Shown: in pieces, positions 26,981-28,709 of the stretch
Layout: every line of letters begins with the position of its first letter
Position numbering within the stretch: position 1 is the first letter of the stretch
Source: Artemia franciscana
Lineage: Eukaryota > Arthropoda > Branchiopoda > Anostraca > Artemiidae
Direction of reading: 5' to 3'
Length of the DNA: 64,000 nucleotides
Assembly: GCF_032884065.1 (NCBI RefSeq)
Contig: NC_088873.1
Coordinates: 8,071,702-8,135,701, forward strand
Translations under genes and position numbers: made by a program
Notes under the pieces: generated by a model
What the model was told of the DNA's origin: nothing
Database searches by the model: none
What the model saw: only the letters and a program-made list of their open reading frames with translations

Positions 26981-28709
26981 TTACATAAAAAAACTAGTTT
27001 TTTTAAGTGAAAGTAAGGAGTGACATTAAAACTTAAAACGAACAGAAATTACTCCGTATATGAAATGGGTTGTCCCCTCCGCAATCCTTCGCTCTTTAGG
27101 CTAAAGCTTTTAATTGTTTTAAAAAGCAGAATTGTGGCAAAGAGTCAAATTTTAGCGTAAAGAGCGAGGGATTGCGGAGGGGACAACCCATTTCATTTAC
27201 GGAGTAATTTCTGTTCGTTTTATGTTTTAAGGTCACTCCTTACTTTCAGTTAAAAAAAAACTAGTTTTTTTATGTAATTTCTGAATGTTTTTGAATTAAT
27301 GCATGTTTGATTTTGGCTCTCCACACATAAATTATTAAAATGAAATTTGCATATTAATTCCTTTTTTGGCTAAATGGCTTTCTCTTTTTGATCAGAAGAT
27401 TTTGAGAAATAAGGGATGGGGAAGGAGGCCTAGCTGCCATGCAATTTTTCGGTTACATAAAAAGGCAACTGTAAATTTCAATTTTTAACGAATTTTTTCA
27501 TTAGTAAAAAATATACGTAACTTAAGAATTAACTTACGTAACAAACTTTTATATTCTTTAATTTTTATTATGTATATGAGGGGGTTTGTACCCTCGTTAA
27601 TACCTCGTTCTTTACACTAAATCGTAAGTTTTGTCCCAATTCTTTAAGAATGACCCCTGAATCAGAAAGGCCGTAGAATAAATAGTTGAAATTACTAAAA
27701 ATACTATAGCATAAAGAGCAAGGTATTTATCTCCTCCTAAATACCTCACTCTTTATGCTAAAGTTTTTTAGAGCCCCTCATATGCATAATAATCTCTGTT
27801 CGTTTTAAGTTTCAATGCTACTCTTTACTTTCAATTGAAAAAACTTTTCCATGTTTATTTTTTCATTGTTTTTTTATAGTAATTTTAGAAAATCCTGCGC
27901 CCTTTTCATTGAATTTCTGTTCCCCCATGACATATTTCTCCAAGGAAAGATCCTCCCACATAGCCCCCTCCCCTCAACCCCACCCCCAAAACCAAAAAAA
28001 AATCCCCTGAAAACGACTGTACACTTCCCAATAACCATTATTATATGTAAACACTGGTCGAAGTTTGTAACTTGCAGCCCCTCCCCCAGGGACCGTGGGG
28101 GAGTAATTCATTCCCGAAGACATAGTTATTATGGTTTTTGACTATGCGGAACAAAATGCCTATCTAAAAATTTTTATCTATTGACTTTGGAGAAAAAATG
28201 AGCGTGGGAGGGGGCCTAGGTGCCCTCCAATTTTTTTGGTCACTTAAAAAAGGCACTAGAACTTTTAATTTCCGTTAGAATGAGCCCTCTTGCGACATTC
28301 TAGGACCACTTGGTCGATACGATGACCCCTGGGAAAAAAAAACAAATAAACACGTACCCGTGATTTGTCTTCTGGCAAAAAATACGAAATTCCACATTTT
28401 TGTAGATAGGAGCTTGAAAATTTTTCTATAGGGTTCTCTGCTACGCCGAATGCGATGGTGTGATTTTCGTTAAGATTATGTGACCTTTAGGGGGTGTTTT
28501 CCCATATTTTCTAAAATAAAGCAAATTTTTTCAGGCTCGTAACTTTTGAAGACAGAGACTAAATTTGATGAAACTTATATATTTAAAATCAGCATGAAAA
28601 TCTGATTCTTTTGATGTATGTTTTAGCATCAAAATTCCGTTTTTTAGAGTTTCGTTTACTATTGAGCCGGGTCGCTCCTTACTACAGTTCGTTACCACGA
28701 ACTGTCTGA
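26981..28709 (+). mobile_element. HLE copy 8, full length (reference copy)
   Basis: This is the best-bounded copy (1729 bp) because it sits inside an (AT)n tract. The 5' end is TTACATAAAAAAACTAG and the sub-terminal motif is GTAAGGAGTGAC. Hairpin 1 is at about 27000-27260, spacer 1 at about 27265-27540, hairpin 2 at about 27590-27830, and the 3' spacer at 27840-28660. The inverted motif GTCGCTCCTTACT follows, then the terminal hairpin ACAGTTCGT-TACC-ACGAACTGT and the final CTGA. The left flank ends in A and the right flank begins with T, with no duplication separable from the AT tract. There is no ORF with transposase, Rep or helicase motifs, so it must move with proteins made elsewhere. Confidence 0.85.

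Follow-up and report, generated by a model that had tools for sequence, protein, structure and literature searches.

A stretch of 64,000 nucleotides of Artemia franciscana (hereafter the window) was analysed and found to contain a complete element of a non-autonomous transposon family, together with further copies of it (Table 1). The 5' terminus of this element, TTACAT at 26981, was preceded by A. An earlier note on this DNA had listed this end together with an inverted subterminal repeat (subTIR), a 9-bp 3' hairpin and a final CTGA, and all of these were re-found in the sequence; its further statement that the element was bounded inside an (AT)n tract was likewise confirmed, a (TA)n tract lying on its 5' side and an (AT)n tract on its 3' side. 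The stop-to-stop frames of the element, considered as possible coding remnants, were all of 100 aa or less. Rfam at gathering scores gave no match in the element and one tRNA elsewhere in the window.

The near-equal lengths of the two AT tracts (105 and 110 bp) were considered as a possible short-read artefact; this explanation was dropped, the published assembly having used long reads according to a passage of PMC11492255. Positions 26766-26829 and 28825-28888, on opposite sides of the AT tract and the element, were 77% alike over 64 bp. The repeated part belongs to the 3' tail of a glycine/tyrosine-rich peptide gene, which suggests an old partial gene duplication around the AT tract and the element.

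Table 1. Positions of the element, its parts and related features in the window
Feature	Position	Strand	Remark
(TA)n target tract, left part	26877..26980	.	
Complete non-autonomous element, 1729 bp	26981..28709	+	longest stop-to-stop frame 100 aa
5' fold-back: inverted arms, 45-nt spacer	26981..27277	+	5' terminus on outer arm
5' subTIR GTAAGGAGTGAC, 12 nt	27013..27024	+	32 nt inside 5' end
5' subTIR, second copy, inverted	27232..27243	-	on inner arm of fold-back
3' subTIR GTCGCTCCTTAC, inverse of 5' subTIR	28671..28682	-	27 nt from 3' end, directly before hairpin
3' hairpin: 9-bp stem ACAGTTCGT/ACGAACTGT, TACC loop	28684..28705	+	4 nt from 3' end
3' terminus CTGA	28706..28709	+	most family copies: TTGA
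(AT)n target tract, right part	28710..28818	.	
Second copy, 5' and 3' ends present, 1925 bp	55425..57349	+	part of 5' arm twice
Third near-complete copy	22681..24321	+	altered 3' end
3' end of a family copy	4466..4491	+	
285-bp tandem repeat	57659..58987	.	intact units = empty site for 55425-57349

The ends listed earlier were real, but a 5' fold-back had been missed. Its core consisted of two 108-bp arms (26998-27105 and 27151-27258) that were 94% complementary, and with gaps the inverted match reached the 5' terminus itself (element positions 1-298 against their own inverse, 86.5%). When the first 298 nt of the element were folded as RNA, the predicted value was -195.5 kcal/mol. A like arrangement of 287-305 bp was recorded in 30 rows of a fold-back scan of the sampled loci, some rows being the same copy seen in two overlapping loci; 26 rows were marked as running into the element body on one side and four as solo. 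It was proposed that the fold-back probably originated when the 5' end was duplicated in inverted orientation, and that it was afterwards copied together with this end. A free-standing fold-back of ~303 bp was also observed at locus L007 (1469-1772) without the usual body after it, and its flanks, TTCAGGCAA and TTGCCTGAA, were inverted repeats of each other.

The family proved to be abundant. A blast search with the element (E below 1e-8) assigned to it 16,334 of the 64,000 window bases, about a quarter, and the assembly (1,270,528,402 bases in 6468 contigs) was scanned for exact strings. The subTIR string GTAAGGAGYGAC, of which one complete copy can hold three matches, was found 111,799 times against 129 for the reversed control, and the exact 3' end CCACGAACTGTYTGA 41,472 times against a single match. 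Because the reversed controls gave so few hits, these matches were not due to chance. At least ten copies in the window had been credited earlier with a shared TTAMAT start preceded by A. When TTA[AC]A[TC] was required together with the subTIR at no more than two mismatches, 15 starts were obtained, all of them after A, but only eight were distinct outer ends: as read from the upstream letters, six were inner fold-back arms and one end was listed twice.

Several copies deviated from the complete form. The third near-complete copy in the window had a longer hairpin stem in which the inner pairs GTTCGT/ACGAAC were kept, and it still ended in ...TTTGA followed by T; no 3' subTIR was recognizable in it. 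By reading of the letters, the copy ending at 4466-4491 had inserted into the 5' end of a second one, on the minus strand at 4520. Among the sampled loci, L018/L019 carried a deletion derivative of 334/335 bp, made of the first ~225 and the last ~106 bp of the element, with A before and T after it; the shared flanks suggest one insertion that was later duplicated. Only the last 187 bp of the element were present in L012, beside a reading frame which we take to be that of a non-LTR retrotransposon. L032 held a copy that had two internal gaps and, directly behind it, a second copy without its first ~242 bp. Tandem Helitron copies are known, but in those described in an excerpt of PMC7492417 the inner copies are cut at the 3' end, whereas the second copy of L032 was cut at the 5' side.

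Over the last 900 bp, most sampled copies were about 91-97% alike to their nearest relatives without shared flanks, and the most similar pairs whose flanks differed reached about 97%. For the window copies with 3' ends at 14017 and 6507, the nearest relatives were 85% and 82% alike, respectively. This sample is biased towards young copies, since the sampled loci were the best matches to one copy. Pairs with shared flanks were 95-99.9% alike. The bodies of L012, L018/L019 and L032 were other or rearranged.

Some repeats in the neighborhood were recorded as well. Three tandem ~283-bp units at 61191-62026 matched modules of the transposon family and are possibly a satellite in the making. Beside family fragments lay a two-copy 213-bp tandem duplication with 95% matches (38236-38655). 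A perfect hairpin with a stem of ~25 bp (ACGTACAGGAATTAGGAGAGGCAGTTAACTGCC...) at 19827-19880 showed no sign of family membership.

The 3' end of the family was examined for conservation. Among 39 distinct ends matching to the last base, those not doing so having been dropped, 32 carried TTGA and seven CTGA. The final CTGA described earlier is therefore correct for the element at 26981-28709, but it is a minority ending family-wide. The 3' subTIR was present within two mismatches in all 47 sampled 3' ends (26 distinct; profile of the end), which were mostly chosen as best matches to one copy. The 9-bp stem was perfect in 31 of these 47 ends, or in 33 when G-U pairs were allowed; it was broken in the other 16 (14 with G-U), which is expected for old copies and is no proof of constraint. 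The family hairpin was also observed with a different upstream sequence at 121 3' ends in the assembly, CCTTCGCTCC being present in 56 of the 100 listed (hand count). These variant ends may represent other subfamilies or bodies, among which there may be larger relatives.

An autonomous Rep/helicase element with the ends of the family was not found among the best 150 of 7,436 PF14214 and the best 150 of 12,030 PF05970 candidates. All 30 PF14214 loci that were cut out belonged to one other Helitron family and were 89-99% alike to its reference copy. This canonical Helitron had a 1663-aa ORF with Helitron_like_N, PIF1 and Pif1 2B domains, and its four long loci, which were 99.3-99.9% alike, had a G+C-rich hairpin and a CTAG end before TATATA. 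Many of the best 150 of the 12,030 PF05970 (PIF1) places neighbored PF14214 places and had the same ORF lengths. Open Rep/helicase frames of up to 1663-1688 aa of this young, abundant element (G000, L039-L072) were seen at many of the best 150 PF14214 places. By reading, L072 contained a copy of the studied family, then TATATA, then the apparent 5' end of the canonical Helitron.

The possibility was considered that the family is of Helitron1 type and is moved in trans by this canonical Helitron (ORF ~1663 aa). The proposed driver is numerous (judged from the best 150 of 7,436 candidates), its four long loci are highly similar, its CTAG end before TATATA points to a similar target, and the CTGA ending fits CTRR. 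However, no blast match linked the studied family to the body of this Helitron, either in its four long loci or in 30 shorter ones, the family starts with TT and not TC, its 3' hairpin and spacing are other, and most of its copies end in TTGA. Such mobilization in trans was regarded as improbable.

Other Helitron lineages were covered by further domains. PF20209 (DUF6570), which we take to be linked to Helitrons, was found at 47 places, marking other lineages, and the OTU domain (PF02338) at two. Beside four DUF6570 places, in stretches that may have stopped short of the termini, no subTIR within two mismatches was found; the stretches scanned lay between two DUF6570 ORFs (L093) and upstream of two degenerate DUF6570 copies (L094/L095). 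When the 100 listed of the 121 variant 3' ends were compared by eye with the 47 DUF6570 places, none was both near and correctly oriented, the closest (C12) being 7.4 kb away on the wrong side.

The bases next to the insertions were then counted. Assembly-wide, the base before the exact 5' end TTAMATAAAAAAACWAGTTTTT was A in 8,919 of 9,103 cases and another base in 184, a count that includes inner arms, which are mostly preceded by A, so that A may be less frequent before outer ends taken by themselves. In the sampled loci A stood before all 33 accepted 5' ends, at least two of which (L017, L029+) look like inner arms. The exact 3' end was followed by T in 28,228 of 41,472 cases (68%) and by A, C or G in 13,244. 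Counted over distinct flanks, T followed at 29 of 39, and at 27 of 36 once duplicates had been removed more strictly; TA was found in 17 of these 36, compared with 8.4% of the window dinucleotides (p = 9e-10). A separate set of 12 flanks after the 3' end started with T in nine cases and with A in three. At 15 sites with both flanks the left base was A in all 15, an A having been among the features by which these ends were selected; the right base was T at nine, A at five and C at one. Accordingly, the precise A|T insertion claimed earlier held for the A, which is nearly invariant, but the T is a preference only. Such an A|TA target preference would suffice to account for copies that lie within (AT)n tracts, with no special targeting of microsatellites.

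A target duplication is not judgeable at 26981-28709, because duplication of an AT unit between AT tracts is invisible; the flanks of this element, with AT repeats on both sides, match directly over at least 10 nt. Consistent target-site duplications (TSDs), which had been named beforehand as evidence against a Helitron, were looked for at the 15 joined sites, and no constant duplication was observed. The longest direct match across the insertion was 0 nt at eight sites, 1 nt at three, 2 nt at two (AA, TA) and 3 nt at one (AAA, in an A run), and the only 10-nt match was that of the AT-tract copy.

The joined flanks of the 15 sites were also compared with the window and the sampled loci, and an uninterrupted relative was found for two of them. 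The copy at 55425-57349 was inserted in a unit of the 285-bp tandem repeat, and its joined flanks ...TTATAAA^TACCTCA aligned without a gap at the junction to six uninterrupted units (window 57661, 57946, 58231 and 58515; L007; L087), all reading ...AAA^TA... These were the six aligned of eight junction-spanning matches, 76-85% alike, and they are paralogous units, not alleles. The junction at this site was A|T, with no loss of target and no duplication above 1 nt. The second empty site was weaker (L083/L021 against window 8839-8558, 77%) and also read A^T, with small indels nearby. The absence of target duplication asserted earlier thus could not be judged for the element it was claimed for, but it was judged at other copies. 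As A is both the base in front of the 5' end and the last base of the element, the insertion can be parsed equally well in three ways: as TTAMAT...YTGA between A and T with no TSD, as ATTAMAT...YTG before A, and as TTAMAT...YTG with a 1-nt TSD (A).

These data bear on the reading of the family as a MITE, that is, a non-autonomous cut-and-paste (DDE) transposon whose terminal inverted repeats would be the fold-back. The first ~298 bp do form a near-perfect inverted repeat with TTAMAT at the outer end and its inverse at the inner end, and the ~303-bp fold-back in L007 lacks the usual body, though its own flanks are inverted. Nevertheless, the inner end of the fold-back is internal to the element, as seen from the rows running into the body (26/30), the actual 3' end, a hairpin, does not resemble the 5' end, the empty site showed no TSD of at least 2 bp, and no constant match was present at the 15 joined sites. 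As inverted repeats at both termini and a TSD of fixed length were both lacking, and in view of the empty sites, the MITE/DDE reading was rejected as very improbable. Least probable of all was an ATon-like family with terminal inverted repeats, insertion at AT and no known transposase. As described in an excerpt of PMC3422177, the ATons of Aedes aegypti resemble the studied family in their lack of coding sequence, in their A and T flanks and in having no known autonomous partner, but the two described families, ATon-I and ATon-II, are 112 and 144 bp long with ATAGGCC ends and true terminal inverted repeats of 15 and 17 bp, whereas the studied family has no inverted repeat between its two ends and has a 3' hairpin.

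Based on these results, it was concluded that the family probably consists of non-autonomous rolling-circle elements of the Helitron superfamily, with a layout nearest to that of HINE/DINE-1 and a Helitron-like target. The central claim of the earlier note, a non-autonomous Helitron-like family inserted beside A without consistent duplication, is supported by the empty sites, the flank counts and the end anatomy. The broad features of the superfamily, namely asymmetric ends, a 3' hairpin and no TSD, were found, a 1-nt TSD still being compatible with the data. The family is regarded as a variant within the broadly defined Helitron superfamily and is assigned to neither Helitron1 nor HINE, because defining features of both were tested and found to be absent.

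With respect to Helitron1, the 5' TC was absent, the accepted 5' ends starting with TTAMAT (scan pattern TTA[AC]A[TC], by which other starts are missed). The 3' CTRR was not a feature of the family, CTGA being present at only seven of 39 distinct ends, and the hairpin lay 4 nt from the 3' end and not 10-12 nt before it, the distance given for Helitron1 in a passage of PMC5148889. Canonical Helitrons share with the family the 3' hairpin and, through the CTGA variant, CTRR. Insertion between A and T without a TSD may be common to both, the A being nearly invariant in the family, the T present in 68% and the empty site reading A^T with a 1-nt ambiguity; the family differs by TT in place of TC, by the presence of subTIRs and by a T that is not obligatory.

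HINE/DINE-1 elements are non-autonomous and derived from Helentrons. According to excerpts of PMC4067079 and PMC7492417, they share with the family subTIRs of ~12 bp, a second inverted 5' partner, a 3' subTIR with a palindrome, the lack of a TSD, noncoding sequence and high copy number. The HINE subTIR feature (12-15 bp, the 3' one then followed by a palindrome) was found as GTAAGGAGYGAC / GTCGCTCCTTAC and the hairpin. In mite HINEs, as described in a passage of PMC4067079, the 5' subTIR is 2-4 nt and the 3' subTIR 38-60 nt away from its end, and the palindrome lies 8-35 nt before the 3' end; this spacing was not found in the family, where the distances were 32, 27 and 4 nt. The TT or T-rich target of HINEs (PMC4067079, PMC7492417, in part) was not found either, the family target being beside A (98%) and usually before T, and the inverted repeat of oyster HINEs is 7-12 bp long in the same excerpts, compared with more than 100 bp here. 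The Helentron comparison made earlier was therefore apt for the layout, but not for the spacing and the target.

The proto-Helentron of Phytophthora infestans shares a 5' TT and insertion between A and T without a TSD; unlike the family it is autonomous, ~14 kb long, ends in CTAG and is described in the consulted part of PMC4067079 with Helitron-like, not Helentron-like, ends. Judged from these partial sources, the target and 5' TT of the family are closest to this proto-Helentron and the layout is closest to HINE/DINE-1. FoHeli, a Helitron2-like group of Fusarium, resembles the family in its asymmetric inverted repeats with a hairpin and an A/T-rich target after TNAT, but differs in its ends (TCAG...ATTTT, TGCCT...CTCCTGT) and in having known autonomous members (PMC5148889, excerpt). 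No title matching a description of the family was found among open-licence PMC papers on Artemia repeats, Helitrons and Helentrons. It is possible, if rather unlikely, that the family is a separate rolling-circle lineage that combines Helentron-type subTIRs, a target in which A is obligatory and T preferred, and a 5' fold-back of unusual length in which the 5' end, the presumed origin, is present a second time in inverted form. Under this reading the fold-back may act in cis, either as a second nick site or as a structure aiding replication, and may be part of the reason why the genome contains more than 40,000 exact 3' ends.

Rolling-circle transposition in trans was considered the best explanation because of the asymmetric ends, the subTIR beside the 3' hairpin, the lack of a constant TSD and the clean empty sites. 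We proposed that a Rep/helicase supplied in trans would nick at the 5' A|TT end, that one strand would be displaced as far as the 3' hairpin, which would act as the stop signal, and that the displaced strand would be joined into the target beside A. Because of this joining beside A, TA-rich sites such as (AT)n would receive copies.

Helitrons make up 8.81% of the Artemia franciscana genome according to a passage of PMC11492255, and the family may account for part of this content. It forms a large part of the genome, yet it mixes features of the ends by which Helitron1 is distinguished from Helitron2/Helentron. Its exact 3' ends, numbering more than 40,000, together with the empty sites in the window, represent a dense natural data set on the end signals and target bases of rolling-circle transposition.
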